This document shows, piece after piece, positions 6,701-26,710 of a DNA stretch of 64,000 nt. The first letter of the stretch is position 1, and each line of letters starts with the position of its first letter. The position numbers and the translations under genes are program-made. The notes beneath the pieces were generated by a model, which ran no database searches, was not told the DNA's origin, and saw only the letters and a list, made by a program, of their open reading frames with translations. The stretch comes from Yoonia maritima (GTDB taxonomy: Bacteria; Pseudomonadota; Alphaproteobacteria; Rhodobacterales; Rhodobacteraceae), in the NCBI RefSeq assembly GCF_003003285.1, contig NZ_PVTP01000002.1:1-64000 (forward strand). Direction: 5' to 3'.

Positions 6701-6703
6701 CTT

Positions 6704-6777: not shown

Positions 6778-6792
6778 TTGCCCTATGTTTTG

Positions 6793-7992: not shown

Positions 7993-10949
7993 TACTTTGT
8001 TCCTTCGATAGTCAGCGCATCGTTCACGAGCGCTGTTTGTTCTGCTTTGTGTTTACTGGCAAGACCCGTCGCCGGAGAGGCCGAAGCCGCACGCCCAGCG
8101 TATACAGGCCGTGTGTGTTTTGCTTTGATCCGGGTGAGGACCCATTCAATGTTTGGTTCCATAAAGGACCAAGCACCTTGGTTCTTAGGTTCTTCCTGAC
8201 ACCAGACCATTTCAGCGTTCTTAAACCGCTCAAGTTCGTTCACAGCGGATTGGGCCGGGAACGGGTAGAATTGTTCGAAACGCATGATGTAGACGTCGTT
8301 GATCCCGCGTGCATCGCGTTCTTCCAGCAGGTCATAGTAGACCTTACCAGAACACATCACGACGCGCTTGATCTTATCGTCGGCGACCAATGTGGTGTCT
8401 GAATTGCCGTGCTGGGCGTCATCCCACAATACGCGGTGGAAGCTTGAGCCAGTGGTGAATTCTTCGGCCTTAGACACCGCCAGCTTGTGACGTAGCAGTG
8501 ACTTTGGTGTCATCATGATCAACGGCTTACGGTAGCTGCGGTGCAGCTGACGACGCAGAATGTGGAAGTAGTTCGCGGGCGTTGTACAGTTCGCAACGAT
8601 CCAGTTGTCACCACCACACATGGTCAGGAAACGTTCCAGACGTGCGCTGGAGTGCTCCGGCCCTTGGCCTTCATACCCGTGCGGCAACAGACAAACGAGG
8701 CCGGACATCCGGAGCCATTTGCTTTCGCCGGATGAGATGAACTGATCGAACATGATCTGCGCACCGTTGGCGAAATCGCCGAACTGGGCTTCCCATAGCG
8801 TCAGCGCGTTTGGTTCAGCCAATGAGTAGCCATATTCAAACCCAAGCACCGCGTATTCGGACAGCATGCTGTCGATTACTTCGTAGTTCGCCTGACCTTC
8901 GCGGATGTGGTTCAGCGGATAATAGCGATCTTCGTTGTTTTGGTTAATCAGGCCAGAGTGACGTTGGCTGAATGTACCACGTGTACTGTCCTGACCGGAC
9001 AGACGTACGGGGTAGCCTTCGGTGACCAGTGAGCCAAACGCGAGCGCCTCTCCAGTTGCCCAGTCAATGCCTTCGCCGGTTTCGAACATCTTGGATTTTG
9101 CAGCCAAGATACGACCAACCGTTTTGTGCAGTGGGAAACCGTCTGGCACGGTTGTCAAGCCACGACCAATTTCTTGGAACGTCTTTTTCTTAATCGCTGT
9201 CGCGCCGCGCTGGTAATCTTCTTTCTGGGCATCCAAATGTGACCACTTGCCGTCCAACCAGTCAGCTTTGTTAGGCTTAAACGTACGACCCGCTTCGAAT
9301 TCAGCATTCAGGTGCGCTTGGAAGCTCGCCTTCATGTCTTCGATTTCGCCTTCAGGGATCAGGCCGTCTTTGACCAAGCGATCAGTGTAAAGCGTCAGCG
9401 TTGTCTTCTGCTTTTTGATCTTTTTGTACATCACCGGGTTGGTGAACATCGGCTCGTCGCCTTCGTTGTGACCAAAGCGGCGGTAGCAGATGATGTCCAG
9501 AACCACGTCTTTGTGGAACTTTTGACGGAATTCCGTTGCGACGCGGGCGGCGTGTACCACAGCCTCTGGATCGTCACCGTTCACGTGGAAGATTGGTGCT
9601 TCGACCATCAGCGCAATATCCGTTGGGTACGGGCTAGAGCGGCTAAAGTGGGGTGCGGTGGTAAAGCCGATTTGGTTGTTCACGACAATATGCATCGTGC
9701 CGCCGGTGCGGTGACCGCGCAAACCAGACAGGCCGAACCCTTCGGCAACGACGCCTTGGCCTGCGAACGCAGCATCACCGTGCAGCAAAATACCCATGAC
9801 CTTTGTCCGGTCAGTATCATGTTTCTGGTCTTGTTTCGCGCGGACCTTGCCCAATACAACCGGGTTCACGGCCTCTAGGTGGGATGGGTTCGCGGTAAGT
9901 GATAGGTGAACATTGTTGTCGTCAAAGCTACGGTCAGATGACGCACCAAGGTGGTATTTTACATCGCCGGAACCATCGACCTCCTCGGGTTTGAACGACC
10001 CGCCTTGGAATTCGTTAAAGATCGCGCGGTAGGGCTTTTCCATCACGTTCGCGAGGACCGACAAACGGCCACGGTGCGGCATACCGATGATGATTTCTTC
10101 AAGACCCAGCTGACCGCCGCGCTTGATGATTTGCTCCATCGCAGGGATCAGGCTTTCGCCGCCATCTAGGCCGAAACGTTTGGTGCCCATATATTTGACG
10201 TGCAGGAATTTTTCGAAACCTTCGGCCTGAACAAGGCTGTTCAAAATGGCTTTGCGGCCTTCTTTGGTAAAGGCGATCTCTTTGCCGTAGCCTTCGATGC
10301 GTTCTTTCAGCCAACCCGCTTCTTCGGGGTTGGAAATATGCATGTATTGCAAGGCGAAGGTGCCGCAATAGGTGCGTTTAACAATCGCAATGATCTCGTT
10401 CATCGTCGCAACTTCGAGGCCAAGCACGTTATCAATAAAGATCGGGCGATCCATGTCGGCGGCGGTAAAGCCGTAGGATGCTGGGTCCAATTCCGGGTGC
10501 GGAACGTTTGCATGCATGCCCAATGGGTCAAGGTCAGCAACCAAGTGGCCACGAATGCGGTAGGCGCGGATGATCATCAGTGCGCGAACAGAGTCCAAGA
10601 CGGCTGCGCGTACTTGGTCCTCAGACAGGCTCACGCCTTTTTCGGCGGCTTTCGCTTCGATCTTTTTACCAGCGGCGGCTGGTTCCGCGGGCCACTGACC
10701 GTCAAGCGCAGACGTCAGATCGTCATTCGGTACCGGAGGCCAATCCATACGGCCCCAAGACGGGCCAGCGGCCTCTGCCTTGGCGTCCATCGGGGCATCA
10801 CCCAGCGCCTTGAAAAAGTCGCGCCAGCTTTCATCAACCGCATTGGGGTTGTCGGCATAGCGCGCATAAAGCTGTTCTACATATTCCGCATTATGCCCCT
10901 GCAGGAACGATGAGGCGTGAAGAATGTCGTTAGGTGATTGATCGTTCAT
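7992..10949 (-). CDS. sucA: 2-oxoglutarate dehydrogenase E1 component
   Basis: 985 residues, the usual length. It decarboxylates 2-oxoglutarate using thiamine diphosphate and succinylates the lipoyl group of SucB. The N-terminus ([22 protein letters not shown]) is the E2-binding tail typical of SucA. The thiamine diphosphate region contains [17 protein letters not shown], and the C-terminal half has the transketolase-like domain ([14 protein letters not shown]). It is the third gene of the operon, between a DUF805 gene (4-base overlap at its start) and sucB. Confidence 0.98.
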
Positions 10950-11386
10950 TGTTGAACCTCATGGAGCGGGATCGGCAGTTTTTGGGCGTTACGGGATGGC
11001 CAAGCAAGTATGACAAGAAGGCCAGCTAGAAAAAAGAAGAGAGGTGTTGGCGGGTCGTTGTATTCGGCGAACCGAACAAGATAAAATGTTAGGGCACCGC
11101 CCGCGAGGAGGAGGCCCCACGCAAAGATGCCTACGTCGTTGATTCTGCGGGCGGTTACCGCCAGCAGAGGGATTTGGACCATTATGTTAGCGGCAATGAT
11201 GCAATAACCGATAACTATACGTAATGTCTCAGGCCACCGCCAGATTGCTTCGTTTAGGCTAACGGACACCATAGAGACGACGGTCGCGAAGAGCCAATAC
11301 TGCCAAAACTCTGAGCGTTTAGCAGTTAGCCAAAACACAAAGAACTTTCTAAAGCAGGCTCTAATGGCTTCTTCGCTAGACATCAC
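10946..11386 (-). CDS. DUF805 family inner-membrane protein
   Basis: 146 residues with four hydrophobic segments. FWLTAKRSEFWQYWLF at about 18-33 and VTARRINDVG at about 75-84 are the two conserved DUF805 motifs (aromatic-Arg before the first helix, and RRxxDxG between helices). Function unknown. It lies between sucD (one base away) and sucA (4-base overlap), so it is certainly cotranscribed with the TCA genes. A second ATG directly follows the first and is an equally good start. Confidence 0.8.
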   Translation of the reverse strand: MMSSEEAIRACFRKFFVFWLTAKRSEFWQYWLFATVVSMVSVSLNEAIWRWPETLRIVIGYCIIAANIMVQIPLLAVTARRINDVGIFAWGLLLAGGALTFYLVRFAEYNDPPTPLFFFLAGLLVILAWPSRNAQKLPIPLHEVQQ

Positions 11387-11387
11387 A

Positions 11388-12269
11388 TTAGCCGATTGCC
11401 TTCAGCACAGCTTCGCCAAGTGTGGCGGGGCTGTCTGCGACGACGATACCGGCAGATTTCATTGCTTCGATCTTGCTTTCCGCGTCGCCTTTACCACCGG
11501 CAACAATCGCACCAGCGTGACCCATGCGGCGGCCCGGAGGGGCTGTGCGGCCTGCGATGAAACCAGCGACTGGCTTCCAGCGGCCTTTTTTCTTTTGCTC
11601 AGCAAGGAATTCGGCAGCTTCTTCTTCTGCAGAACCACCGATTTCACCGATCATGATGATCGAATGTGTTTCGTCATCGTCAAGGAACATGTCCAGCACG
11701 TCGATGTGCTCTGTGCCTTTGATGGGGTCGCCACCGATACCAACAGCTGTGGACTGACCAAGGCCAGAGTCAGATGTCTGTTTTACGGCTTCGTATGTCA
11801 GGGTACCGGAACGGGACACAACACCAACAGAACCACGTTTGTGAATGTGGCCCGGCATGATGCCGATTTTGCATGCGTCAGGTGTGATAACGCCTGGGCA
11901 GTTCGGCCCGATCAGACGGGATGCAGAACCTTCAAGCGCGCGCTTGACCTTCATCATGTCCAGCACAGGGATGCCTTCGGTGATACAGATGATCAGTTCC
12001 ATTTCAGCGTCGATCGCTTCGAGGATGGAATCCGCAGCGAAGGGCGGAGGCACGTAGATTACCGATGCGTTTGCTTCGGTCACGTGCTTGGCTTCGTGGA
12101 CAGAGTTGAACACAGGCAGGTCAAGGTGCGTCATGCCGCCCTTGCCGGGTGTCACGCCGCCAACCATTTTAGTGCCATAAGCAATGGCTTGTTCAGAGTG
12201 GAACGTCCCCTGAGAGCCTGTAAGACCCTGACAGATGACTTTGGTGTTTTCGTTTACGAGAATGGCCAT
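11388..12269 (-). CDS. sucD: Succinyl-CoA synthetase alpha subunit
   Basis: 293 residues. It carries the CoA-binding Rossmann domain ([15 protein letters not shown] at about 15-29) and the active-site His251 in [12 protein letters not shown], which is phosphorylated during conversion of succinyl-CoA to succinate with nucleotide synthesis. It partners with SucC, encoded about 600 bases upstream. A lipoprotein gene separates the two, which is unusual because sucC and sucD are generally adjacent. Confidence 0.98.
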
Positions 12270-12346
12270 GATGGTGGCTCCTAGTTTCCTATTTGCGCTG
12301 TGGCGAATGAGGTCATCGCCACAGTGTTATTAGCTTTTGAGTGTTA

Positions 12347-12880
12347 TCATTGACGCTTTAAGATCACGTTGGTTCCTCCACCGCCGGAAGAACGACGCAG
12401 ATCAACTGCAACACCGTTTTTCACAAAATACGTTTCTGCAACGTATTCGTTTAGTGGGCGAAGTCGCTTTTCGAAGTCTGCTCGAATGAGGGCAGGTTCT
12501 ACCCAGCTCGCGACCGTATTGTTGTCTCGGAAGTTCGTGGGAGATGCGGTAACTCGACATTCGTCGCGACGTGGTGCCGCAACTACTTTTGAGTTACCCA
12601 GCACATCGGGGTTTTCTAAAGCGATGATATACTTTGAGCCCGACGGCTGAAATCCGTAGCTCCCAAGTGACGACAGTGACGTTCCAGAGACAACATAGTT
12701 TGCGCACGCGGCGATCGCCTGACTAAAGCTGCTTTCAATAGTCGCGTTGACCAAGGAAGATCGCATTGGGCCCGCTCCACCTGTAGCCTGCTCACTGGTA
12801 GATGCAGTTGGATTGGAACAAGCTACAAGCAATGACGCTGTCATTGCTACGCTCAGGTTGTTGATCGCCTTACGCATCAC
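12347..12880 (-). CDS. Hypothetical lipoprotein inside the suc operon
   Basis: 177 residues. The N-terminus [21 protein letters not shown] is a lipoprotein signal with the lipidated Cys at 21 (LVAC). The mature part contains two further Cys (ACANY, DECRV) and a Gly-rich stretch (SSGGGGTN) near the C-terminus. No family is recognised. Its start overlaps the sucC stop by four bases (ATGA type), so it is translationally coupled to succinyl-CoA synthetase. It is probably tethered to the outer membrane. Confidence 0.8.
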
Positions 12881-14070
12881 CCTTTAACCGCTTTCACGAT
12901 TTTCTGGGCGCCGTCTTTCAGGTCGTCAGCAGCGATCACGGCGAGGCCGGAGTTGTTGATGATCTCTTTGCCTTTTTCGACGTTTGTACCCTCGAGGCGA
13001 ACAACCAGTGGAACTTGCAGGCCGACTTCTTTGACTGCAGCGATCACGCCTTCGGCGATGACGTCGCAGCGCATGATGCCGCCGAAGATGTTCACAAGGA
13101 TGCCTTTGACGTTTGGATCAGATGTGATGATCTTGAACGCTTCGGTTACTTTTTCTTTGGTCGCGCCGCCGCCTACGTCAAGGAAGTTGGCAGGTTCAGC
13201 ACCGTAGAGTTTGATGATGTCCATTGTGGCCATCGCCAGACCCGCACCGTTCACCATGCAGCCAATTTCGCCTTCGAGAGCGATGTAGTTCAGGTCGAAC
13301 TTAGACGCTGCCAGTTCTTTTGGGTCTTCTTCGGTTTCGTCGCGCAGGGCGGCGATATCAGCGTGGCGGTAGATCGCGTTGCCGTCGAATGAAACCTTAG
13401 CGTCCAGCACTTTCAGGTCGCCGCCGTCAGTGACGATCAGCGGGTTGATTTCCAGCATTTCCATGTCTTTTTCGACGAATGCTGTATAAAGCTGGCCCAT
13501 CAGTTTGACGCACTGCTTTGTTTGCGGACCGTTCAGGCCGAGTGCGAACGCAACGCGGCGGCCGTGGAAGGGCTGGTAACCTGTTGCAGGATCAACTGTG
13601 AAGTTCAGGATTTTCTCAGGAGTGTTCTCGGCTACTTCTTCGATGTCCATGCCGCCTTCGGTGGAAACAACAAAGCCGATGCGGCTTGTTTGACGATCAA
13701 CCAGTAGAGCAAGGTAAAGTTCGGTTTCAATGCCAGAACCGTCTTCGATGTAGATACGGTTTACGACTTTGCCGACTGGGCCAGTCTGGTGCGTGACCAA
13801 TGTGCGGCCGAGCATCTTCTTTGCTTCTTCGGCAGCTTCTTCGACTGACTTAGCAAGACGTACACCGCCAGCTTCGCCAGCGTCCGCTTCTTTGAATTTA
13901 CCTTTGCCGCGTCCACCAGCGTGGATCTGCGCCTTAACAACCCACAGTGGGCCATCAAGTTCGCCAGCGGCGGTTTTTGCGTCTTCGGCGCGCGTCACAG
14001 GGCGACCGTCGGAAACAGGAGCGCCATAGCTGCGCAGCAGAGCTTTGGCCTGATATTCGTGGATGTTCAT
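12877..14070 (-). CDS. sucC: Succinyl-CoA synthetase beta subunit
   Basis: 397 residues beginning [16 protein letters not shown], the standard SucC start with its ATP-grasp fold. The phosphate-binding region [16 protein letters not shown] and the interface sequence [15 protein letters not shown] are clear. It provides nucleotide and succinate binding for the SucCD complex. It is the promoter-proximal gene of sucC-lipoprotein-sucD-DUF805-sucA-sucB-MAPEG-lpd; the paired palindromes at 14169-14199 lie about 100-130 bases upstream. Confidence 0.98.
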
Positions 14071-14168: not shown

Positions 14169-14199
14169 TGTGATCACAGTTTTTTTGAGTGTGATCACA
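14169..14199. promoter_or_regulatory. Paired operators TGTGATCACA upstream of sucC
   Basis: Two perfect copies of the 10-bp palindrome at 14169-14178 and 14190-14199, exactly 21 bp apart start to start (two helical turns). They are 99-129 bases upstream of the sucC start and 177 bases upstream of the divergent LysE gene. An identical pair with identical spacing precedes sdhC. The position suits an activator of the suc promoter; the GntR protein at 2897 is the likely ligand. Confidence 0.75.
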
Positions 14200-14375
14200 A
14201 AAGCGGGTGGTGGTCGGTTCGTGGACATTCGAGGCCGCTAAAAGATTCGTAATCTTGGCATGTGGTACACAGCTACGGTCGGTATCCGACATTGTATTCG
14301 TAGTTGACGCGTTAATAGATGAATGTTCTTATTTTGTTCGATTAATTGAAGGCTATTTATTCAAAAGGAGTACAC

Positions 14376-15008
14376 GTGTTGGAAGTTGAACTGTATTTAA
14401 TATTTTTAGTCACAACGATTGTTGTGGTGCTGTCGCCGGGTGCGGCTGCGATCGCTGTAGCGTCACAAGGCGCGGGTAATGGCGTAAAGCGTGCAGTTTA
14501 TGGCGTGCTTGGCGTTGCATCTGCGAACGTTGTCTATTTCGCTATGTCAGCGACAGGTATCGCGTCACTTGTGATCGCATCACATGTCATGTTCGCAATC
14601 ATTAAATGGATTGGTGTCGCTTATTTGATGTATTTAGGCTGCATGGCGCTATTTTCGTCATCTGGCGGAATTCAGGTGCGCGTAGGGGAGGAACGAAAAT
14701 CGCGACGGGCATTGTTCACCCATGGATTTATCGTCGAGTTCGCCAATCCCAAAGCATTACTGTATTTTGCAGCTATTCTACCTCAGTTTCTGGATCTGTC
14801 GAAACCCGTAATTCAGCAGATTGCGTTAATGGGCATGACGACCGTCGTGATCGATGTGTCTATTTACAGTGGTTATGCATTAATGGGAGACCGACTAACG
14901 CGCGGCGGGATCAAAAGTTGGGTTGTCGCCTCTGTCAACAAGGTAGCTGGCGCCGCACTGTTGTTCGCTGGTGTTAAGATGGCCACCGTCAGTGCGGGAA
15001 AAACTTGA
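14376..15008 (+). CDS. LysE/RhtB family amino-acid exporter
   Basis: 210 residues from the GTG at 14376, chosen because AAAAGGAG ends five bases before it; a TTG one codon later is possible. The protein has about six hydrophobic helices and the family hallmark VVLSPGAAAIAVASQGAGNG near the N-terminus. It predicts an inner-membrane efflux protein for amino acids or homoserine-lactone-like compounds; the substrate is unknown. It is divergent from sucC and convergent with mdh. Confidence 0.9.
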   Translation: MLEVELYLIFLVTTIVVVLSPGAAAIAVASQGAGNGVKRAVYGVLGVASANVVYFAMSATGIASLVIASHVMFAIIKWIGVAYLMYLGCMALFSSSGGIQVRVGEERKSRRALFTHGFIVEFANPKALLYFAAILPQFLDLSKPVIQQIALMGMTTVVIDVSIYSGYALMGDRLTRGGIKSWVVASVNKVAGAALLFAGVKMATVSAGKT

Positions 15009-15020
15009 TGCATTAAACAA

Positions 15021-15047
15021 AAAAGGTGCCCCGATGGGCACCCTTTT
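15021..15047. terminator. Bidirectional terminator between the LysE gene and mdh
   Basis: A-rich 5' flank, stem GGTGCCC/GGGCACC with a short loop, then CTTTT on the plus strand and a T-rich tail on the minus strand. It sits between the convergent LysE gene (stop 15008) and mdh (stop 15070). Confidence 0.85.
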
Positions 15048-15069
15048 GCATTGGATGTGTTTCAGTCGC

Positions 15070-16119
<1,050 letters not shown>

Positions 16120-16192
16120 TTATTATGTGGTGGTTCCTTATCCTGTAAGGCGCTAACGAAGGATGAATTCAAGGTATTTTAAGGGCAGGCAG

Positions 16193-16948
16193 ATGATTGA
16201 ATTTGATTGGCAATTTTTCATGGTAGGCATCCCTGCGATCATGTTTGGGGGGATTTCAAAGGGTGGATTCGGGTCTGGCGCTGCGTTTGTAGCCGGGGCG
16301 ATTCTGGCGTTGGTCGTGCCACCGGGCGTCGCGCTGGCCGTCATATTGCCGCTATTCATGTTGATCGATGTTGCAACGCTAAAGCCTTATTGGGGGAAAT
16401 GGCATTGGCCATCTGCCAAAGGCATGATGCAGGGGGCGATTCCGGGAGTCATTTTTGCAGCTTGGGTCTATACTGCGGTGGACGCAGATTTCTTCCGCAT
16501 ATTAATCGGTTTGATTTGCTTAGCGTTTGTCATGTTTCAGGTAAGTCGTGCCATGGGGTGGCTCACTATTGAAAAGGCCCCGTTTTCGCGTCCCTTCGCG
16601 TGGCTGGCAGGGATGGTTGGCGGCTTTACGAGCTTTGTCAGCCATGCAGGCGGTCCGCCGACGGCCGTGTTTTTGCTGTCGCAAGGGTTAAGTAAGACGG
16701 CTTACCAAGCCACCACGGTTATCACATTTTGGGCGGTGAATTGGATGAAGGTCGTGCCTTATGCGTTTTTAGGGATATTCACGTGGAACACATTGCTTGG
16801 CAGCTTGGCCTTGGCCCCATTTGCACTGATCGGCGCATGGATCGGTGTGCGGGCCCATGACTTTGTTCCTGAACGGCTGTTCTTTGGTCTAACCTACGTT
16901 CTTTTGGTTTTGACCGGGATACGATTGATATGGGTCGCAGTAGCATAG
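16193..16948 (+). CDS. TauE/SafE family sulfite/organosulfur exporter-like permease
   Basis: 251 residues from MIEFDWQFFMVG; ten more codons are open upstream but the GGGCAGGCAG ribosome-binding-like stretch favours this start. Seven to eight hydrophobic segments with the duplicated TauE motifs: GGISKGGFGSG near residue 20 and GGFTSFVSHAGGPP in the middle. The family moves sulfite, sulfoacetate or similar anions; the substrate here is unknown. It is a single gene, divergent from mdh. Confidence 0.88.
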   Translation: MIEFDWQFFMVGIPAIMFGGISKGGFGSGAAFVAGAILALVVPPGVALAVILPLFMLIDVATLKPYWGKWHWPSAKGMMQGAIPGVIFAAWVYTAVDADFFRILIGLICLAFVMFQVSRAMGWLTIEKAPFSRPFAWLAGMVGGFTSFVSHAGGPPTAVFLLSQGLSKTAYQATTVITFWAVNWMKVVPYAFLGIFTWNTLLGSLALAPFALIGAWIGVRAHDFVPERLFFGLTYVLLVLTGIRLIWVAVA

Positions 16949-16974
16949 CCCCCCAGCAAACGCTGAGGGGCTAT
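16945..16974 (+). terminator. Hairpin after the TauE gene
   Basis: ATAGCCCC and GGGGCTAT form an 8-bp stem, extended inside by CAGC/GCTG, starting at the stop codon of the permease gene. It separates this gene from the convergent PRC-barrel gene at 16986. A T tract is missing. Confidence 0.65.
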
Positions 16975-16985
16975 AGCGTCATGGA

Positions 16986-17621
16986 TTAGCTTGCTTCAAA
17001 CTCTGGCATTGCTTCGAGCTCTTCTTGCGTGGCTGCAACATATACCACCACTTCTCCATCTACTTCGGTCTTCATCAGGGCGAGGTCAGTGAATGGTACC
17101 GCAACGGATTTTTCACCGATGCCAATAAAACCACCTACGTCGATCACTGCTTTTTCGGCGTTGCCGTCAGCAGATAGAATGATTTCGCTGACTTCACCAA
17201 TTTCCGCATCGGTTTCGTCGTAGACTACGGCACCTTCCAGATCAGCGGCGACCATAACATCAGCTTGAGCAGAGATCATCGCGCCGTTTTCGATCATGGG
17301 GCTTGTCACGGTGTCATTGGTTTCCGCGATAAATGCGTCAGCTTCGGCGTCTAGCTTTTCACCAGCGTCAACGATGGCTTCACCTGTTGCCTCAGCGCCG
17401 GCTTCGATGTTGTCGCCAGCTTGGGCCATTGCGTTGCCTGCATCATCAAGCAATGTCGTATCCGCATCTGCCTGTGCGTTCATTTCAAGTTCAGTTGAAA
17501 CAGCTGAATCGTTAGCCTGAGCAGTTACCGCGGTGTCCGCGCTTGTGTTCAAGTTGCTGTCCGCAAATGCAGCTGTACCAACCAAAAGTGTCAGGGCAGT
17601 TGTTGTCATCATACGTTTCAT
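16986..17621 (-). CDS. Exported PRC-barrel domain protein
   Basis: 211 residues from MKRMMTTTALTLLVG, with AAAGGA upstream. Residues 1-21 are a signal peptide (GTAAFA). Residues 22-125 are acidic and low-complexity, rich in Ala, Asp and Glu with repeated GEAT/DAGEKLDAEAD elements. The last 80 residues form a PRC-barrel (GAVVYDETDAEIGEVSEIIL, then AVIDVGGFIGIGEKSVAVPF). PRC-barrels bind RNA, protein partners or quinone-reaction-centre components; an exported copy probably has an envelope role. Function unknown. Confidence 0.85.
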   Translation of the reverse strand: MKRMMTTTALTLLVGTAAFADSNLNTSADTAVTAQANDSAVSTELEMNAQADADTTLLDDAGNAMAQAGDNIEAGAEATGEAIVDAGEKLDAEADAFIAETNDTVTSPMIENGAMISAQADVMVAADLEGAVVYDETDAEIGEVSEIILSADGNAEKAVIDVGGFIGIGEKSVAVPFTDLALMKTEVDGEVVVYVAATQEELEAMPEFEAS

Positions 17622-17736
17622 GTCGTTTCCTTTCACGGTCTGTGATGGCGGTTGCAACGTGTTGCCGCCGCCTTGTGATAGGAGAACAGTCAGGGTCTAT
17701 TTAGGTTGCATGAAATCCGAAATAATTTTGCCCTAT

Positions 17737-18048
17737 CTAAAGCAAAGAGGAAAGCACAGAGAATTTTTCGTGTTTGTATTCAAACGCTTGCCCCGCTGAA
17801 ACCAAGCAGGTCAAATTTCCCGGTCGTGTTGACGTGATTGTCCAGCTGCCAGTATCAGGCGCGACGAATAACTCGACCATTGTGTGGTCGTCGGCCCATC
17901 TGACCGCATGGGGATGTTCACCGAATTGGCGCGCAAGGCGTTCAATGATTGCATCACGATGGATACATGTTTGTTCTGCGCGTGCGTTGTGTGCGGCAAG
18001 CAGCATTGCGCCAATAAGTAACGGCATGTGAAGTAGTATACGCTGCAT
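17737..18048 (-). CDS. Small periplasmic hypothetical protein
   Basis: 103 residues with an N-terminal signal peptide (MQRILLHMPLLIGAMLLAAHNARA). The mature part has two Cys (QTCIHRD and LTCLVSAG) that could form a disulfide, and a TGSWTITSTRPGNLTCLVS block that I recall from similar roseobacter hypotheticals. No function is known. It is transcribed away from mcl2, and its upstream region carries the palindrome at 18140. Confidence 0.75.
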   Translation of the reverse strand: MQRILLHMPLLIGAMLLAAHNARAEQTCIHRDAIIERLARQFGEHPHAVRWADDHTMVELFVAPDTGSWTITSTRPGNLTCLVSAGQAFEYKHEKFSVLSSLL

Positions 18049-18139
18049 CTTGGGGCACCTGATTGGGCTGGGTTTGGTGCTTCGATATTTGGAAGGTATC
18101 TATGATTAATTGGTTAACGCACCGTAACGATGTACTGAT

Positions 18140-18154
18140 TGCCGCAGTGCGGCA
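18140..18154. promoter_or_regulatory. Perfect palindrome TGCCGCAGTGCGGCA upstream of mcl2
   Basis: Seven-base arms around a single central base, 67-81 bases upstream of the mcl2 start. It is the most symmetric member of the GCYGCNNNGCGGC set seen before the EMC genes. It could serve mcl2, the divergent small periplasmic gene, or both. Confidence 0.5.
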
Positions 18155-18220
18155 TGTTTTCGCTTGAATTATCATTCAAAATCTGGACATTTACGCGCAA
18201 CAATATTGCGAGGACACGCC

Positions 18221-19063
18221 ATGCACGACCGCCCATTCCGCTCAGCACTTTATATTCCTGGCTCAAAGGATCGCGCGTTGGACAAAGCGCGTGGCCTGCC
18301 TGTAGATGCGATTCTGTTTGATCTTGAGGATGCCGTTTCGCCTGATGCCAAGGTCGAAGCACGCGCGACGCTCGCGAGCGCGCTAGAGCAAGGCGGCTAT
18401 GGCCCACGGTTTAAGGTCGTGCGCATTAACGGGCTTGATACCGAGTGGGGGTCAGATGATGCGGCAGCTGTTGCGGCAATGGATTGCGACGCGGTTCTTC
18501 TTCCCAAGGTAAACAGCACGGCGGACGTCGACGCACTGGCGGCGCTTATTCCCGATTTGCCAATCTGGGCAATGATGGAAACCCCGCGGGGCATTTTGAA
18601 TGCAGCAAGTATCGCAGCACACCCACGTATGGCGGGGTTCGTGTTGGGAACGAATGATCTGGCCAAAGATCTCAACGCGCGGGGCAGGGCGGCAATGGTG
18701 ACCTCGCTTCAGCTATGTCTGCTTGCGGCAAAGGCGGCAGGCATTGTCGCGCTTGATGGCGTCTATAATGCATTCAAAGACGAAGACGGATTGCGTGCGG
18801 AATGTACCGAAGGGCGCGATATGGGCTTTGATGGCAAAACCCTGATCCATCCGGCGCAGGTTGCCGTTACCAATGCGGCCTTTGGCCCAAGTGACGATGA
18901 AATTGACCTTGCGCGCCGTCAGATCGAAGCATTCGACGTCGCCGAAGCCGAAGGGCAGGGCGTCGCTGTTGTGGACGGCCGCATCGTTGAGAACTTGCAT
19001 ATTGTCACCGCGCGGGCGACGCTAGCGAAAGCTGACGCCATCGCCGCATTGGAGACTTCATGA
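18221..19063 (+). CDS. mcl2: (3S)-malyl-CoA thioesterase, HpcH/HpaI/CitE family
   Basis: 280 residues from MHDRPFRSALYIPGSK; AGGA precedes this ATG. The CitE-type barrel shows ILFDLEDAVSPDAK (acid and base residues) and MMETPRGILNAASIAAHPR, with FVLGTNDLAKDL for metal binding. Its N-terminus matches Mcl2 of R. sphaeroides rather than the longer lyase Mcl1. Mcl2 hydrolyses malyl-CoA to malate in the EMC pathway. Cotranscription with mch three genes downstream, as in R. sphaeroides, supports the call. A citrate-lyase beta-like role is the main alternative. Confidence 0.85.
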   Translation: MHDRPFRSALYIPGSKDRALDKARGLPVDAILFDLEDAVSPDAKVEARATLASALEQGGYGPRFKVVRINGLDTEWGSDDAAAVAAMDCDAVLLPKVNSTADVDALAALIPDLPIWAMMETPRGILNAASIAAHPRMAGFVLGTNDLAKDLNARGRAAMVTSLQLCLLAAKAAGIVALDGVYNAFKDEDGLRAECTEGRDMGFDGKTLIHPAQVAVTNAAFGPSDDEIDLARRQIEAFDVAEAEGQGVAVVDGRIVENLHIVTARATLAKADAIAALETS

Positions 19064-19605
19064 CATTTATCATTCTTGGACTGGTTCTTTGGGCCGGAGT
19101 TCATTTTTGGAAACGACTGGCCCCCGCAAGCCGCGAAGCGCTGGGCGACAAGGGTAAGATGATCGTGACCGCAGGGTCTTTCATCGGTCTGATCTTGATG
19201 ATCATCGGATATCGTGGCGCTGAAGGGACATTCTATTGGGGGCGCACGCCTGCAATGACGGGGATTAATAACCTGTTGATGCTGCTGGCCTTCTATTTGT
19301 TCGCCGCAGCCGGATCAAAAGCACGGATTACACAGTATATTCGCCACCCGCAGTTAACTGCCGTAATGCTGTGGGCTGTTGCTCATTTGCTGGTGAACGG
19401 TGACACGCCATCGTTCATTTTGTTCGGTGGGCTGCTGGTCTGGGCCAGCTCCGAAATCCAACTGATCAACCGCGCGGAACCTGACTGGACGCCCGCCCAT
19501 GCGGTTCCCATGAAAAAAGAAATCACTGCTTTGATCGCAACTGTGGTCGTCTTTGCCGTTGTGGCGGGCGTTCATATCGCGCTTGGCTATAACCCGTTTG
19601 GATGA
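19060..19605 (+). CDS. NnrU family membrane protein
   Basis: 181 residues with five to six hydrophobic helices. It starts with a 4-base ATGA overlap on mcl2. The motif ITQYIRHPQLTAVMLWAVAHLLVNGD is the NnrU signature, shared with isoprenylcysteine-methyltransferase-like membrane proteins. NnrU was named from a nitric-oxide/nitrite reduction locus, but paralogues without that link are common. The operon setting gives no hint of denitrification here. Confidence 0.88.
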   Translation: MTFIILGLVLWAGVHFWKRLAPASREALGDKGKMIVTAGSFIGLILMIIGYRGAEGTFYWGRTPAMTGINNLLMLLAFYLFAAAGSKARITQYIRHPQLTAVMLWAVAHLLVNGDTPSFILFGGLLVWASSEIQLINRAEPDWTPAHAVPMKKEITALIATVVVFAVVAGVHIALGYNPFG

Positions 19606-19609
19606 AGAC

Positions 19610-19813
19610 ATGAAAATCTATCGACTACTGACCGAAGACGACACCGCTGCATTTTGTCACAAAGTGTCCGAGGCCCTATCAAAAGGTTGGGAGCTGTACG
19701 GCAGCCCAACCTATGCGTTTGATCAGGCAAATGGCGTGATGCGTTGCGGTCAGGCCGTCACCAAAGATGTCGACACGCCTTATACACCTGACATGAAGTT
19801 GGGCCAGCAATGA
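19610..19813 (+). CDS. DUF1737 domain protein
   Basis: 67 residues from MKIYRLLTEDDTAAF. The body (CHKVSEALSKGWELYGSPTYAF) is typical of short DUF1737 proteins, which occur widely as stand-alone genes or as tails of larger enzymes. Function unknown. It sits between nnrU and mch and its stop overlaps the mch ATG by four bases, so it is cotranslated with EMC enzymes. Confidence 0.85.
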   Translation: MKIYRLLTEDDTAAFCHKVSEALSKGWELYGSPTYAFDQANGVMRCGQAVTKDVDTPYTPDMKLGQQ

Positions 19814-20835
19814 CCAAAACAAACGCAGGCCGCTTTTTTGAGGATTATGCCGTTGGAGATGTGATCACCCATGCGGTGCCGCGCACGATTAAGATGGGTG
19901 AAAGGGCGCTGTATCACGCGCTTTATCCCGCGCGTCATGCGTTACATTCATCAGATCAATTTGCGCAAAGCTGCGGCCTGCCGTTTAGCCCGCTTGATGA
20001 CCTTGTTACCTTTCATACGGTCTTTGGGAAAACGGTGCCCGATGTGTCGCTGAATGCAGTGGCCAATCTAGGCTATGCAGAGGGGCGTTGGATCACGTCA
20101 CTTTGGCCCGGAGACACGATCACTGCCACGTCAGAGGTGATCGGGGTTAAGCAAAACTCGAATGGTAAAAGCGGCGTTGTCTGGGTTCGGACAACAGGTC
20201 GGAACCAACACGGCGAAGAACTGATGTCCTACGTTCGTTGGGTCATGGTGCGCAAGCGGGGCGAAGGCCCAGCACCTGAAACCGTGATCCCTGAACTGGC
20301 AAAGGCCGTATCAGTGCAGGATCTTGTTATCCCTAAGGGTTTGGATTTCACGAACTACGATTTTGCCCTTGCGGGTGAGCCGCATCGCCTGTCGGATTAT
20401 TCTGTGGGCGAGGTTATCGACCACGTTGACGGCGTCACCATTGAAGAGGCCGAGCATATGCTCGCCACGCGCTTGTGGCAGAACACCGCGAAGGTTCATT
20501 TCGACGCGACCAATCGACCCGATGGCAAGCGCCTGATTTACGGTGGCCATGTGATCAGCCTTGCGCGGGCACTGTCGTTCAACGGTCTGGCAAACGCGCA
20601 GATGATCGTCGCATTGAACGGTGGGGCGCACGCGAACCCTTGCTTTGCCGGCGACACCGTACGTGCGTGGTCAGAGGTTTTGGATATTGCCGAAACATCA
20701 GCACCCGGCGTCGGAGCGATCCGCTTGCGGCTGGTCGCGACCAAGGGCGAGGCCGGAACGCTGCGCGGCGAAGACGGGAAGTACGCGTCAGAAGTTCTTC
20801 TGGACTTGGATTACTGGGCGCTGATGCCTGTATGA
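19810..20835 (+). CDS. mch: Mesaconyl-CoA hydratase (MaoC family)
   Basis: 341 residues, a double hot-dog MaoC enzyme. Residues 1-160 and 180-341 each resemble a MaoC domain (GRFFEDYAVGDVITHAVPRT at the N-terminus; IYGGHVISLARAL in the second half). Length and N-terminus agree with Mch of R. sphaeroides, which interconverts mesaconyl-CoA and beta-methylmalyl-CoA. The operon with mcl2 supports EMC function. The 3' end overlaps the next gene by four bases. Confidence 0.88.
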   Translation: MTKTNAGRFFEDYAVGDVITHAVPRTIKMGERALYHALYPARHALHSSDQFAQSCGLPFSPLDDLVTFHTVFGKTVPDVSLNAVANLGYAEGRWITSLWPGDTITATSEVIGVKQNSNGKSGVVWVRTTGRNQHGEELMSYVRWVMVRKRGEGPAPETVIPELAKAVSVQDLVIPKGLDFTNYDFALAGEPHRLSDYSVGEVIDHVDGVTIEEAEHMLATRLWQNTAKVHFDATNRPDGKRLIYGGHVISLARALSFNGLANAQMIVALNGGAHANPCFAGDTVRAWSEVLDIAETSAPGVGAIRLRLVATKGEAGTLRGEDGKYASEVLLDLDYWALMPV

Positions 20836-21938
20836 ACAATGCAGGCTGGATGGCTAAACTTCATCGCAAAGCAGGCGAGAAAGTTTTCCGTGGGGCGTTA
20901 GAAGACTTGCAAGCTGGCAAATTGCGGCGGGTCGAAGCCGCGCATCGCACGGCGCTATTACTATCGTTGTTTGTGATGCTATCCCCTGTCGCCCTAATCG
21001 TGGCAGGTGGCGTCATCGCCGTCGCAGCTTTGCCGTCTTTAGGAGGCATCTTTTGGGGAGGTCTCCTAATTGCCGTCGGGGTATTTCTGTTGCCCGCGCG
21101 CTTTCGGGCACCTGAACGTGCGCTTCGGCGCAATGACGCGCCACGCCTGTTCAAGGATTTGGACCGGGTCAGTGAAGCGTTGGGCGCTCCGAAAGTTACG
21201 GTCGTGGCTGTAGATGGAAGCTTTAATGCTTTCGCAGCGATGCATCGCAAAGAGGTTGTGCTTGGGATTGGTGCCGTGTTGTGGGACGCTAGTTCACCGG
21301 AACAACGGCTTGCACTTGTTGCGCATGAGACCGCGCATTTCGTGAATGGTGATCCTTCGCGAACGCGAGTGATTGGGTTTGCTTTACAGATGCTTGATAA
21401 ATGGGAAATGCTTCTTGAGCCCGATTTTGGTGATGCAGCGCATGCTTTCGCAGCACTGCTTCTCTTGCCGTTTCGTTGGCTGGTTGCACTCCTGAATGAG
21501 ACAATTCGGACGTTGCTATACGTCCAAATGCAGCGCGCTGAATATCTGGCTGATGCTCTGGCGGCAGAAGCTGCAGGGGGCAATGCTGTAAAGCAATTAC
21601 TGTCCACAATCAGCCTATCTGAGTATATTGATGAACAATGGAGCACGCGGCATGGCGTTGGTTCTGCTCGGGGGCGCGATGTTATCAAAATGATTGTAGA
21701 GCCCGTGGTTCAATTGAATGCTGATGAACGCGTTGAAATTGCGATGGGTAATGGGAAAGTGGATCATTCAGTTGATACCACGCATCCTCCTACCCACTAT
21801 CGGATCGCTTTCCTCGACGCTGCCTGCCTAACCAAACGTAAAATTCTGAACAATCTGTTCGATCGTGAAGATATGTCGTTCGAGAAAGCGTTCGATGCCG
21901 TGGGTGAGAGCCTCGCGGCACAGCTTGAAGTTCAATGA
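20832..21938 (+). CDS. M48-type membrane zinc metallopeptidase
   Basis: 368 residues from the ATG at 20832 that overlaps the mch stop; the frame is open much further upstream but that part is the mch gene. Hydrophobic segments span about 41-90. The zinc motif HETAH is at 165-169 and a downstream RAEYLADALA supplies the third ligand, in HtpX/Ste24 style. It may act in membrane-protein quality control. Its tie to the EMC operon looks positional only. Confidence 0.85.
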   Translation: MNNAGWMAKLHRKAGEKVFRGALEDLQAGKLRRVEAAHRTALLLSLFVMLSPVALIVAGGVIAVAALPSLGGIFWGGLLIAVGVFLLPARFRAPERALRRNDAPRLFKDLDRVSEALGAPKVTVVAVDGSFNAFAAMHRKEVVLGIGAVLWDASSPEQRLALVAHETAHFVNGDPSRTRVIGFALQMLDKWEMLLEPDFGDAAHAFAALLLLPFRWLVALLNETIRTLLYVQMQRAEYLADALAAEAAGGNAVKQLLSTISLSEYIDEQWSTRHGVGSARGRDVIKMIVEPVVQLNADERVEIAMGNGKVDHSVDTTHPPTHYRIAFLDAACLTKRKILNNLFDREDMSFEKAFDAVGESLAAQLEVQ

Positions 21939-22019
21939 ACTAATCGCCGACCTGCGCGAGGCTAGTCACCGCGTATGGTAATTGAGATTAATTCTGACTA
22001 AATCAGTCATCTTATGATT

Positions 22020-22050
22020 TGTGATCACATGGAAAAATTGTGTGATCACA
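22020..22050. promoter_or_regulatory. Paired operators TGTGATCACA upstream of sdhC
   Basis: Perfect copies at 22020-22029 and 22041-22050, again 21 bp apart start to start, 139-169 bases upstream of the sdhC start. Sequence and spacing equal those of the sucC pair. This predicts joint control of succinate dehydrogenase and the 2-oxoglutarate/succinyl-CoA steps by one dimeric regulator binding two adjacent sites on one DNA face. Confidence 0.75.
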
Positions 22051-22188
22051 AAAGCGCAGAATTTCGCTGATTGGCGTATTATTTCACCGTTAATCCATCT
22101 TCCTCTGCGTGACTCTTGTTTGGAACTGGTGCAAAAAAGGACCAAAGGCGCGACCGAAATGGCAGCCAAGCCAAAGAAGGGAACATTC

Positions 22189-22578
22189 ATGGCCGACAAT
22201 AAACAGGACAACCGTCCTCTGTCTCCGTTCATGATCGGGCAATACTACCGACCACAGTGGACGTCGATGACGTCGATCTTCACACGTATCACTGGGCTTT
22301 CACTGCTCGTTTCTGCATTGATGATCGTATGGTGGTTTGTTGCCGCTTCGGCCGGGCCAGACGCATTTGCGGTGGCTAACGGTTTCCTGACCAGCTGGTT
22401 TGGTGATCTGGTCTTGTTCCTGTCCACTTGGGCGATGTGGTATCACATGCTTTTCGGTATCCGTCACCTGATCTGGGACTCTGGCCGTATGCTTGAGGTC
22501 GACCAGTCCGAACTTTACGCGCAAGCCGCGTTGGTTGGGTCTGTCTTGCTGACAATCTTTGTCGTTATCGTTCTTTAA
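22189..22578 (+). CDS. sdhC: Succinate dehydrogenase cytochrome b556 subunit
   Basis: 129 residues from MADNKQDNRPLSPFM, with AAGAAGGG just upstream; an in-frame ATG at 22159 would add ten basic residues. Three membrane helices. The N-terminal PLSPFMIGQYYRPQWTSMTS is the quinone-site region, and MWYHMLFGIRHLIWDSGR holds the haem-ligand His and the FGIRHL motif. First gene of sdhCDA(-lipoproteins-)B; the paired palindromes lie in its leader. Confidence 0.96.
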   Translation: MADNKQDNRPLSPFMIGQYYRPQWTSMTSIFTRITGLSLLVSALMIVWWFVAASAGPDAFAVANGFLTSWFGDLVLFLSTWAMWYHMLFGIRHLIWDSGRMLEVDQSELYAQAALVGSVLLTIFVVIVL

Positions 22579-22590
22579 GGGAGGCAGATC

Positions 22591-22962
22591 ATGGCATTTA
22601 TGACTGACCGTAAACGGGCTGCTGGCCTTGGTTCCGCCAAAACAGGAACTGAACACCACTGGCACATGATGGTAACCTCTGTGGCGCTTGTGCCGTTGGT
22701 GGTGCTGTTCATCTTTACATTCGGCGCGATCCTTGGATCCCCTTATGAAGAGGTTATCGCCTATTATCAGCGCCCAGTTCCGGCGACGATCGCGATCCTG
22801 ACCATGCTAGTTGGTTTTAACCACTTTGCGAACGGCGTCCGCGCCACCATCGAAGACTACACCGGTGGCATGACCCGCAAAGCGCTGATCATTGGCATGA
22901 CTTGCCTTTCTTATACTGCTGCCGCCTTTGCGATCTTCGCAATCGTGCGCATCGCCCTTTAA
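22591..22962 (+). CDS. sdhD: Succinate dehydrogenase membrane anchor subunit
   Basis: 123 residues, preceded by GGAGGCAG. Three hydrophobic helices. [16 protein letters not shown] carries the likely haem b His, and [20 protein letters not shown] matches the conserved SdhD helix with the quinone-binding Tyr. With SdhC it anchors SdhAB to the inner membrane. It starts 12 bases after sdhC. Confidence 0.95.
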
Positions 22963-22982
22963 TTCCGCGGAGCAACTCAATC

Positions 22983-24788
22983 ATGGCTGCATACGAATAC
23001 GAAACCCATAACTATGATGCGATTGTTGTTGGCGCTGGCGGCGCCGGCTTGCGCGCAACTTTGGGTCTGGCAGAGCAGGGCCTGCGCACCGCTTGTATTT
23101 CAAAGGTTTTCCCAACACGTTCACACACTGTTGCTGCCCAAGGTGGTATTGCGGCGTCCCTTGGTAACATGGGCCCAGATAGCTGGCAGTGGCACATGTA
23201 TGACACTGTGAAAGGCTCTGACTGGCTGGGTGATACCGACGCAATGGAATACCTTGCGCGCGAAGCCCCCAAAGCGGTTTACGAGCTGGAGCACTACGGT
23301 GTGCCATTCAGTCGGACCGAAGAGGGTAAGATTTACCAGCGTCCGTTTGGTGGCCACACAACTGAATTTGGTGAAGGCCCGCCCGTACAGCGTACCTGCG
23401 CTGCAGCTGACCGGACTGGTCACGCGATCCTTCATACGCTTTATGGTCAGTCGCTGAAACAGCAGGCTGAGTTCTACATCGAATACTTTGCGCTTGATCT
23501 GATCATGTCCGAAGATGGCGTTTGTCAGGGTGTTGTCTGCTGGAAGCTGGACGATGGTACGATGCACGTCTTTAACGCTAAGATGGTTGTTCTTGCGACT
23601 GGTGGTTACGGCCGTGCCTATTTCAGCGCGACGTCTGCCCACACCTGTACAGGTGATGGTGGCGGTATGGTTGCTCGTCAGGGTCTTGCGCTGCAGGATA
23701 TGGAGTTCGTCCAATTCCACCCAACCGGTATCTACGGCTCTGGCTGCCTGATCACCGAAGGTGCCCGTGGTGAAGGTGGTTATCTGACCAACTCTGAGGG
23801 TGAGCGTTTTATGGAGCGCTACGCGCCGAACTACAAAGACCTTGCACCGCGCGACTATGTCAGCCGTTGTATGACAATGGAAATTCGCGAAGGTCGCGGT
23901 GTCGGCCCAAGTGGTGACCACATCCACCTTAACTTGAACCACCTGCCAGCTGAAGCTCTGGCCGAACGTCTGCCCGGCATTTCTGAATCGGCCAAGATTT
24001 TCGCAGGTGTTGACGTGACCAAAGAGCCAATCCCGGTTCTGCCAACGGTTCACTATAACATGGGCGGTATTCCAACGAACTATTACGGTGAGGTTCTGAA
24101 CCCTACTGCCAAAGACCCGAACGCTGTTGTTCCTGGCCTGATGGCCGTTGGTGAAGCTGGCTGTGCCTCTGTGCACGGTGCGAACCGTCTTGGTTCTAAC
24201 TCGCTGATTGACCTTGTGGTCTTTGGCCGTGCCGCCGCGATCCGCGCTGGCCAAGTGGTTGACCGCGACGCAGCAAACCCAACGCTGAACCAACCTTCGG
24301 TTGACGCGTGTTTCGACCGTTTTGATGGTCTGCGTAACGCAAACGGCAACGTTGCTACTGCTGATCTGCGTCTTGAGATGCAAAAGGCGATGCAGGCTGA
24401 CGCAGCTGTGTTCCGTACAGATAAGACACTGGCCGAAGGCGTTGAGAAGATGACAGCAATCGCGGGCAAAATGGATGACCTCAAGGTCACCGACCGCAGC
24501 CTCGTTTGGAACTCTGACCTGATGGAAACGCTTGAGCTGACCAACTTGATGCCAAACGCACTGGCGACGATTGTTGGTGCTGAAGCGCGCAAAGAAAGCC
24601 GCGGCGCACACGCGCACGAAGACTACGCGACACGTGACGACGAAAACTGGCGGGTGCACACCATCAGCCACGTTGATGGCAGCAAAGTGACCCTAAGCCA
24701 CCGCCCCGTCATCACTGCGCCGCTGACAACCGAAGCTGAAGGCGGGATTTCAGAAGCGAAAATCGCACCTAAAGAGCGGACATTCTAA
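22983..24788 (+). CDS. sdhA: Succinate dehydrogenase flavoprotein subunit
   Basis: 601 residues from [20 protein letters not shown]-binding [19 protein letters not shown] at 15-33. The covalent FAD attachment site is His48 in [11 protein letters not shown]. Active-site regions [20 protein letters not shown] and DYVSRCM follow. It oxidises succinate to fumarate. A 516-codon antisense frame inside it is a codon-usage shadow. Its stop overlaps the start of the first lipoprotein gene by one base. Confidence 0.98.
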
Positions 24789-25234
24789 TGAAGATAGTAA
24801 TCGCATTTTTGACAGGCGCATCGGTACTTGGCCTAACAGCCTGTGCTGGCCAAGACCCGATGAAGTCATATCCGCAGGCCGAAACGGTGCGCGAATGTCA
24901 GGTTTTGCACGCGGCTGAATCTGATCAAGCACGCCAAAATGTGCGGAATACGCAGTATACATCGTCGGGTGGAAACGCACTTGGAACGTTGATAGGGACT
25001 GCAATTGGTAAGGGTATCGGTGAAGGTGTTCTGAATAACCGTCTTCAAGGGTGCATTGCACGTGTTGGGGGGGCGTCACCTGCTGGAGGTGCGACTTACA
25101 CCTCGTCGATTGGCTCAGCCTCATCAAGCTACAGCGGTTCCTCTGCAGGCTACCAACCCGCCATTGGAGGATCGCAGTGTAAGCGAGGAGCAGGGCCATT
25201 CCAAGGCGGTGGTGCACTTTGCCCGGGATCATAA
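24788..25234 (+). CDS. Small lipoprotein A between sdhA and sdhB
   Basis: 148 residues. [19 protein letters not shown] is a lipoprotein signal, lipidated Cys at 19. The middle has a Gly-rich glycine-zipper-like stretch (GNALGTLIGTAIGKGIGEG) and the end is Ser/Gly-rich. Cys residues at about 37 and 89 could pair. Its ATG overlaps the sdhA stop (TAATG). No family beyond lipoprotein is recognised. Its role near succinate dehydrogenase is unknown. Confidence 0.8.
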   Translation: MKIVIAFLTGASVLGLTACAGQDPMKSYPQAETVRECQVLHAAESDQARQNVRNTQYTSSGGNALGTLIGTAIGKGIGEGVLNNRLQGCIARVGGASPAGGATYTSSIGSASSSYSGSSAGYQPAIGGSQCKRGAGPFQGGGALCPGS

Positions 25235-25274
25235 GTTAGCTGCTGCTGACGCAATGAGAGACAAGGATAGTTCG

Positions 25275-25598
25275 ATGCGATTATTGATAGCGATGGGCCT
25301 AGCGACATGTACGCTGTCCGGTTGCATGCAAGATCTAGGCTCCCAAGGTGACGTGCTTGCGCGCAGCGCGGCTAAGGGTGTCGTAAATAATGTCGTGGCA
25401 TCTAAGTTTCCTGGCGTCGATGCGACGCCCGTGACGGACTGCATTATCGACAACGCCTCTGGTTCGGAAATTCTGACCATCGCTGAGGCTGCCGTGGTGG
25501 GGACTTCGCAAGCGACGACTGATCTTGTCGTTGATATCGCGCAGCGCCCTGAAACAACCCGGTGTGCAGCGAGCAGTTTATTGGGGGTAACCCTGTGA
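25275..25598 (+). CDS. Small lipoprotein B between sdhA and sdhB
   Basis: 107 residues from MRLLIAMGLATC, preceded by AAGGA. Lipobox LSGC places the lipidated Cys at about residue 17. The mature region is Ala/Val/Thr-rich with two further Cys (DCIIDNASG and TRCAASSLL). No recognised function. The stop overlaps the GTG start of the following gene, so lipoproteins B and C are translated together. Confidence 0.78.
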   Translation: MRLLIAMGLATCTLSGCMQDLGSQGDVLARSAAKGVVNNVVASKFPGVDATPVTDCIIDNASGSEILTIAEAAVVGTSQATTDLVVDIAQRPETTRCAASSLLGVTL

Positions 25599-25888
25599 TA
25601 CGTGTTTCCGCTTTTGCATTGATGTGTGTTTTGGCTGGCTGTGCGACGACACCGCCAACGCCAGAAGAAGCCGCACAAAAATGCGAAGAGCGGGCGCAGG
25701 CTGCACAGGCGCCAACCGGTGGTGTAACCGTCGGTGTGAATAGCCGGACGGGTGTTTCGACCGGCATCCAAATAGGTGTTTCGGCTGACCTAATACGCGG
25801 GCGTGACCCGTTAGAAGTTTATCAAAGCTGTGTCATGGATATGACCGGCGAACCGCCTATCCGCCCTGCGCGGTTGCGGGCTCTTTAA
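25595..25888 (+). CDS. Small lipoprotein C between sdhA and sdhB
   Basis: 97 residues from the GTG at 25595 that overlaps the preceding TGA; an upstream in-frame start lies inside gene B. VIRVSAFALMCVLAGC is a lipoprotein signal (LAGC, Cys at about 16). The mature part includes a Gly/Val/Thr repeat (GGVTVGVNSRTGVSTGIQIGV), suggesting beta strands, and two more Cys. No family is recognised. Confidence 0.75.
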   Translation: MIRVSAFALMCVLAGCATTPPTPEEAAQKCEERAQAAQAPTGGVTVGVNSRTGVSTGIQIGVSADLIRGRDPLEVYQSCVMDMTGEPPIRPARLRAL

Positions 25889-25930
25889 GAATTTTCGGGC
25901 AATACTGTCCGTGACGGAAGGATCATCACT

Positions 25931-26710
25931 ATGGTGCAACTGACACTCCCTAAGAATTCCCGCATGACTGTCGGGAAAACATGGCCAAAGCCTGAAGGCG
26001 CGACAAATCTGCGTAAGGTGCAGATTTATCGTTGGAACCCAGACGACGGGAAAAACCCGCAGCTGGATACATATTTCGTGGATATGGATACCTGTGGCCC
26101 GATGGTTCTGGACGTTCTGATCAAGATCAAGAACGAGATTGATCCCACCCTGACGTTCCGCCGGTCGTGCCGTGAAGGCATCTGTGGTTCGTGCGCGATG
26201 ATGATCGACGGGATCAACACGCTGGCCTGTATTTACGGCCTCGACGAAATCAAAGGCGACGTGAAGATTTACCCGCTGCCGCACATGCCAGTGATCAAGG
26301 ATTTGATCCCTGACCTGACCCATTTCTACGCACAGCATGCGTCGATCATGCCTTGGCTTGAGACAAAGACGAACCGCCCTGCGAAAGAATGGAAGCAGTC
26401 GATTGAAGACCGCAAAAAGCTGGATGGCCTGTATGAATGCGTGATGTGCGCGTCATGCTCGACTTCGTGCCCATCCTACTGGTGGAACAGCGATCGTTAC
26501 CTCGGCCCCGCGGCCTTGTTGCACGCGTACCGTTGGATCATCGATAGCCGTGATGAAGCAACGGGCGAGCGTTTGGATGAACTTGAAGATCCGTTCAAAC
26601 TGTACCGCTGCCACACGATCATGAACTGTGCCAAGACGTGCCCCAAAGGGCTAAACCCGGCCAAAGCCATTGCCCACATTAAAGGCATGATGGTTGAACG
26701 TGTTGTCTAA
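25931..26710 (+). CDS. sdhB: Succinate dehydrogenase iron-sulfur subunit
   Basis: 259 residues. [2Fe-2S] ligands at Cys80, 85, 88 and 100. The [4Fe-4S] and [3Fe-4S] clusters use Cys170, 173, 176, 180 and Cys227, 233, 237 (CxxCxxCxxxC and CxxxxxCxxxC spacing). It transfers electrons from SdhA to quinone. It is the last gene of the sdh operon, separated from sdhA by three lipoprotein genes, and is followed by a strong terminator. Confidence 0.98.

Follow-up and report, generated by a model that had tools for sequence, protein, structure and literature searches.

Why would the same short palindrome stand in two identical pairs before two operons of the tricarboxylic acid (TCA) cycle, and what would bind it there? 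This question is raised by the first 64,000 nucleotides of contig NZ_PVTP01000002.1 (assembly GCF_003003285.1) of the alphaproteobacterium Yoonia maritima, the whole stretch of DNA analyzed here and referred to below as the window. The perfect 10-bp palindrome TGTGATCACA occurs twice upstream of sucC, at 14169 and 14190, and twice upstream of sdhC, at 22020 and 22041, the two copies of each pair being 21 bp apart. A string search of the window returned all four copies at exactly the positions given in a preliminary description of this DNA, and the pairs head the suc and sdh gene clusters, as that description had claimed in placing each before a TCA operon. We predict both pairs to be twin operators (14169-14199, with the sucC-proximal copy at 14169-14178, and 22020-22050, with the sdhC-proximal copy at 22041-22050). 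On the evidence of the sequences compared below, we consider it very probable that they serve the GntR/FCD-family regulator encoded at 2897-3544, and that this protein is a TCA-cycle activator of the AkgR type.

The pairs are far above chance expectation. A first-order Markov model of the window's composition gave 0.04 copies of TGTGATCACA per 64 kb (200 random sequences); the earlier estimate was of fewer than one. A fifth copy, missing from the preliminary description, lies at 2878; with five copies, TGTGATCACA outnumbers every other perfect palindromic 10-mer in the window, the runners-up having two. Since the commonest palindromic 10-mer of any kind in random sequences averages 2.48 copies and reaches a maximum of 6, a copy number of five is by itself not decisive; it is the pairing that decides. 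With self-overlapping palindromes excluded, 4 of 300 random sequences contained identical non-overlapping palindromes at most 100 bp apart, and none contained one palindrome paired twice at the same spacing. This confirmed the twin pairs as a real feature. Around each pair the symmetry extends to a larger inverted repeat, TTTGTGATCACA-N11-TGTGATCACAAA, with perfect 12-11-12 geometry. The whole genome (3,677,387 bp) contains seven copies of TGTGATCACA, five of them inside the window, and the sites at sucC, sdhC and the regulator gene together make up these five of the seven; the other two, at C3:383965 and C20:18305, are single. The 21-bp pairing occurs only at the two TCA operons, and no third 21-bp pair was found in the genome with up to three mismatches allowed. 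Thus, the genome-wide count that had been proposed as a check speaks against a palindrome scattered at random.

The fifth copy leads to a candidate regulator. This single predicted operator (2878-2887) lies 9 bp ahead of the start codon (ATG) of a gene at 2897-3544 on the plus strand, whose product matches the Pfam families GntR (PF00392, 49 bits, cut-off 27) and FCD (PF07729, 66.2 bits, cut-off 24.3); the best NCBIfam match is PRK11414 (GntR family) at 83.3 bits, under the model cut-off of 225. It is one of a larger set, as the genome has 17 GntR-domain hits, 14 of them above the Pfam cut-off. Named relatives of the regulator were represented by 80 of the 438 loci found, a set that holds no R. 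sphaeroides record and in which the closest relative is from Yoonia maritima (99% identical). A site with at most one mismatch precedes the regulator gene in 60 of these 80 relatives, exactly in 53, and begins 17-22 bp before the start codon in 55 of the 60. Likewise, 15 genomes out of 26, that of the window among them, contain a single such site within 60 bp upstream of the gene. We interpret the single site before the ATG as probably autoregulatory, and its nearness to the start codon points to repression of the regulator gene by its own product. The earlier proposal that the GntR protein is the regulator is thus favored by a site at its own gene, both here and in most of the named relatives examined.

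Pair and regulator gene occur together across the family. We surveyed 198 genomes of the Rhodobacteraceae, each labelled as a separate genus and entered as one row per genus; the genera share ancestry, and the counts are therefore not phylogenetically independent. A regulator match at E<=1e-50, the threshold applied throughout, was found in 177 of the 198 genomes. The exact 21-bp pair was present in 109 genomes, 108 of the 177 with a regulator match versus 1 of the 21 without (Fisher P 4e-7). Eight of these 21 have weaker matches, the best at 3.8e-49 with 40% identity (G054). In another genome (G109), a partial match of 60% identity covers residues 10-98 (L379, C56:33051-33317) and the sdhC upstream region is without the site; this is possibly a decaying regulator gene.

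For sdhC, 160 upstream regions (those of 30 genomes chosen for detailed study of the sucC, sdhC and regulator loci, and 130 others) were taken from the 187 genomes with an sdhC match, and a pair was scored where two cores of at most one mismatch each lay 19-22 bp apart. Such pairs were present in 137 of the 160 genomes, the window's included: 135 of the 149 with the regulator versus 2 of the 11 without (P 2.5e-7). Both cores were exact in 124 of the 137 pairs, and the spacing was 21 bp in 123, 20 bp in 13 and 19 bp in 1. Exact cores 8-60 bp apart, counted over all 160 regions, were separated by 21 bp 112 times, by 20 bp 12 times and by any other distance 5 times. The 11-bp middle between the cores varies widely, yet their spacing is nearly fixed. 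Upstream of sucC, 26 of 29 regions contained the pair, again including that of the window (21 bp in 24, 20 bp in 2); it was present in all 26 genomes with a close regulator orthologue and in none of the 3 without (G004, G014 and G029). The conservation before sucC and sdhC that had been suggested as a check is thus found, and the pairs are not absent from close relatives. With up to three mismatches allowed, 15 of 19 regulator-positive genomes contained exactly two pairs, one contained a single 21-bp pair, its sucC pair being 20 bp, and three contained one or two extra matches, each with 3 mismatches.

As a control, the reversed pattern matched no genome listed, and one (G036) when three mismatches were allowed. 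This control is weak because the pattern contains CTAG, a tetramer that is rare in many bacteria; better controls are provided by the co-occurrence of pair and regulator gene and by the phasing described below. At the level of the class, 4 of 240 genomes contained an exact 21-bp core pair (the window's genome, family member G219, G344 and G399), and family member G055, with its pair at 20 bp, was hence missed by this search. The G399 pair lies within an inositol-monophosphatase-like gene. In G344, which belongs to another family, the core pair (L383, C189:992-1020) is located directly before a different GntR/FCD open reading frame (ORF, 1028-1903), implying that paired cores of this kind may predate the TCA regulon or extend beyond it.

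The position of the pair relative to the sdhC promoter follows a second rule. The pentamer GTGAC is strongly positioned downstream of the sdhC pair, and we read it as a candidate -35 element; in the window this is GTGACT at 22109-22114 on the plus strand, 59 bp past the proximal operator and followed by a weak -10. Exactly one GTGAC lies within 110 bp of the pair in 113 of the 137 cases, and in 98 of these it stands 56-61 bp past the proximal site, typically at about 58.6 bp. Other permutations of these five letters gave no comparable peak, save two that overlap the GTGAC peak. The other 15 offsets are 36, 47, 48 (three times), 49, 50, 68 (twice), 69, 70 (twice), 71, 78 and 80, so that shifts of about -2, -1, +1 and +2 helical turns are all observed. 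At a period of 10.5 bp, the phase being taken from the main cluster, V was 0.79, a value reached by none of 20000 random draws. Since the phasing had first been noticed in the initial 30 genomes, the remaining pairs were tested separately as a held-out set: 79 of the 90 lay in the 56-61 range and the other 11 outside it, with a V of 0.775 that 1 of 20000 random draws attained. When the fuller promoter GTGAC[AT]-N16-TA was required, 101 of the 137 pairs qualified, 88 at 57-61 and 13 outside, the latter with V 0.83 (0 of 100000 random draws). The concentration at 10.5 bp was R 0.88 for the distance from pair to -35 and 0.145 for that from pair to start codon. The same GTGAC[AT]-N16-TA promoter is present in several sdhC upstream regions without a pair, which supports the -35/-10 reading. 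Taken together, the fixed helical phase between the pair and the candidate sdhC promoter suggests upstream activation.

One further feature of the interval between operator and promoter was observed. An A-tract element of the type GCCAAAAAACCGC is found in 23 of the 160 sdhC upstream regions (for example L177 and L174) and in 19 of the 23 starts 34 bp before a GTGAC; it may bend the DNA between operator and promoter.

We next compared these features with known systems. We take RSP_0981 to be AkgR. AkgR itself is reportedly a GntR-family regulator of the TCA cycle in Rhodobacter sphaeroides, described by Imam et al. in 2015 (mBio 6:e02461-14). A passage of PMC6365646 on AkgR calls it a transcriptional activator with GTGATCAC in its sites, and RSP_0981 is named in part of PMC4344238 as the predicted regulator of succinyl-CoA synthetase, succinate dehydrogenase and 2-oxoglutarate dehydrogenase. 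The Yoonia protein, from a different genome, resembles AkgR in its family, having both GntR and FCD domains above cut-off; the GTGATCAC core attributed to AkgR in that passage is present at all three places in the window, and the sites precede the same operons as the targets predicted for RSP_0981 in the passage concerned. Because AkgR was published as an activator of these same operons, we place the window's sites in what would be the AkgR regulon of the Yoonia genome, a regulon already known in kind, and the gene at 2897-3544 would be a probable AkgR orthologue. In the passages of the citing papers that describe AkgR, the 21-bp twins, the sdhC phasing and the site at the regulator gene do not appear; the spacing rule, the sdhC phase rule, the site that probably serves autoregulation and the co-occurrence of sites and regulator gene are additions to AkgR as it is known from those passages.

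Two other regulators were considered. The PS417_07240-type GntR regulator of Pseudomonas simiae, 32% identical to AkgR, has the same palindrome GTGATCAC near its gene cluster, but the relevant passage proposes it for deoxyribonate catabolism genes and places the site at -47 to -40 from the start codon, with no mention of a pair (PMC6365646). CceR (RSP_1663), a central carbon regulator of R. sphaeroides, is predicted on sdh and mdh in part of PMC4344238, but it belongs to the LacI family and its motif is [A/G/T]GTT-N6-8-AAC[A/C/T]. A literature search for the exact string TGTGATCACA gave no relevant paper, judged by titles, and GTGATCAC together with GntR was found in PMC6365646 alone.

For an activator of the AkgR type, the arrangement would work as follows. 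Two regulator dimers would occupy the same face of the helix at a distance of two turns, with the center of the proximal sdhC site some 63 bp before the candidate -35 and thus, given ordinary promoter spacings, at roughly -97 from the start point. Far-upstream sites on one face at whole-turn distances would fit the needs of upstream activation, and a helical phase kept across genera would let the regulator touch RNA polymerase from upstream. Transcription of sdhCDAB and sucCD-sucAB-lpd would be raised jointly, presumably in response to an effector, and through the single copy before its own ATG the protein would limit its own synthesis. This agrees with the preliminary description on two further points. 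It had predicted a shared regulator, for which the same pair before both operons throughout the family, and its absence from most genomes without the GntR orthologue, provide an argument; and it had proposed two dimers on one face, which is consistent with the core spacing of 21 bp in 112 cases and the phase between pair and promoter at sdhC. As far as sequence can indicate, that interpretation is well supported, and known in kind.

Several observations weigh against the assignment. No close upstream site precedes 11 of the 26 and 20 of the 80 regulator genes, 14 of the 149 sdhC upstream regions from genomes with the regulator are without the pair, and pairs are kept without a detected orthologue in G114, G096 (77% complete) and G019. 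Of the 137 sdhC pairs, 13 lack a GTGAC within 110 bp and 11 are followed by more than one, including out-of-phase copies at 8, 14-16, 23, 24, 30, 37, 51 and 86; in the window itself, the GTGACT at offset 59 is not accompanied by a TA at N16. The control distance, measured from -35 to start codon, also deviates from a flat distribution (R 0.30 for 66 values off the mode, at another phase), and the random-draw figures overstate certainty, the genera not being phylogenetically independent. A sigma70-like scan of 67 distinct sucC upstream regions gave no sharp -35 position, a conserved TT at offsets 47-48 being suggestive only, and the phase rule is limited to sdhC because no promoter was fixed for sucC. 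Finally, the probable orthology to RSP_0981 is drawn from targets, motif and family.

It is unlikely that the pairs are instead repressor operators, at which the regulator would block sucC and sdhC until released by an effector. Many GntR/FCD proteins do repress, and the single site before the regulator's ATG would fit repression of that gene. At sdhC, however, most genomes have about 57-61 bp between the end of the proximal site and the candidate -35 downstream of it, and the site keeps its phase when shifted, which suits activation over occlusion, and AkgR is termed an activator in the passage that mentions it (PMC6365646). Less probable still, a different regulator, either another GntR protein or one of the CRP/FNR type, would bind the pairs and the gene at 2897 would be a bystander. 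The G344 pair directly upstream of a different GntR/FCD gene would accord with this, as would the mention of GTGATCAC for the Pseudomonas protein with 32% identity to AkgR (PMC6365646, in part). Yet the gene at 2897, about 10.5 kb from the sucC start, has the site before it in the 60 named relatives counted above, and the pairs mostly vanish along with the gene. A CRP/FNR operator was rejected, since in CRP-type sites the half sites stand six bases apart (TGTGA-N6-TCACA), whereas those of TGTGATCACA abut with no bases between them. We reject as highly improbable that the repeat is an RNA or DNA hairpin (terminator, attenuator or cruciform) and not a protein operator: every pair does form a perfect 12-11-12 inverted repeat, but at sdhC it precedes the candidate promoter, from which it would hence not be transcribed, the conserved unit is the 10-bp palindrome, which is found singly too, and the middle 11 bp vary widely with the spacing kept.

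The presumed targets of the AkgR-type twin operators are two gene clusters whose members match NCBIfam models, which also back the names sucC and sdhC. The first, sucC-sucD-sucA-sucB-lpd with small intervening ORFs, occupies 4555-14070 on the minus strand, with the sucC ATG at 14070. Its small ORFs on the minus strand include one between sucC and sucD (12347-12880), without a Pfam match, and one between sucD and sucA (10946-11386), with a DUF805 match. The second, sdhC-sdhD-sdhA-(small ORFs)-sdhB, occupies 22189-26710 on the plus strand; sdhC probably starts at 22189, and another in-frame ATG lies at 22159. The mdh gene is located at 15070-16032 on the minus strand, with a divergent LysE-type ORF between it and sucC, and no copy of TGTGATCACA with at most one mismatch was found before mdh. 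Of the two single copies beyond the window, that at C20:18305-18314 lies 43 bp ahead of an ORF whose product, with HAMP, HisKA and HATPase domains, is a sensor histidine kinase; this ORF is divergent from a metallo-beta-lactamase-fold ORF and is a possible extra target. The other, at C3:383965-383974, is followed after about 165 bp by an ORF with a CoA-binding domain (PF13380).

In this family, two TCA-cycle operons and a regulator gene are joined by a few precisely placed sites that have been conserved across a large number of genera. The exact pair, present in 109 of the 198 family genomes surveyed, offers a DNA signature by which the regulon may be found in unannotated genomes, and pair spacing together with helical phase amounts to a quantitative rule for possible upstream activation by an FCD-type GntR protein. 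That FCD dimers 21 bp apart form a far-upstream, one-face activating module throughout the family, at about -97/-118 and shifted by whole turns, is a proposal whose chances we judge to be evenly balanced. If true, the sdhC promoters would amount to an experiment of nature on the helical phasing of an FCD-type activator. Most FCD-type GntR proteins are thought to repress, and far-upstream, phase-dependent activation would be unusual among them.

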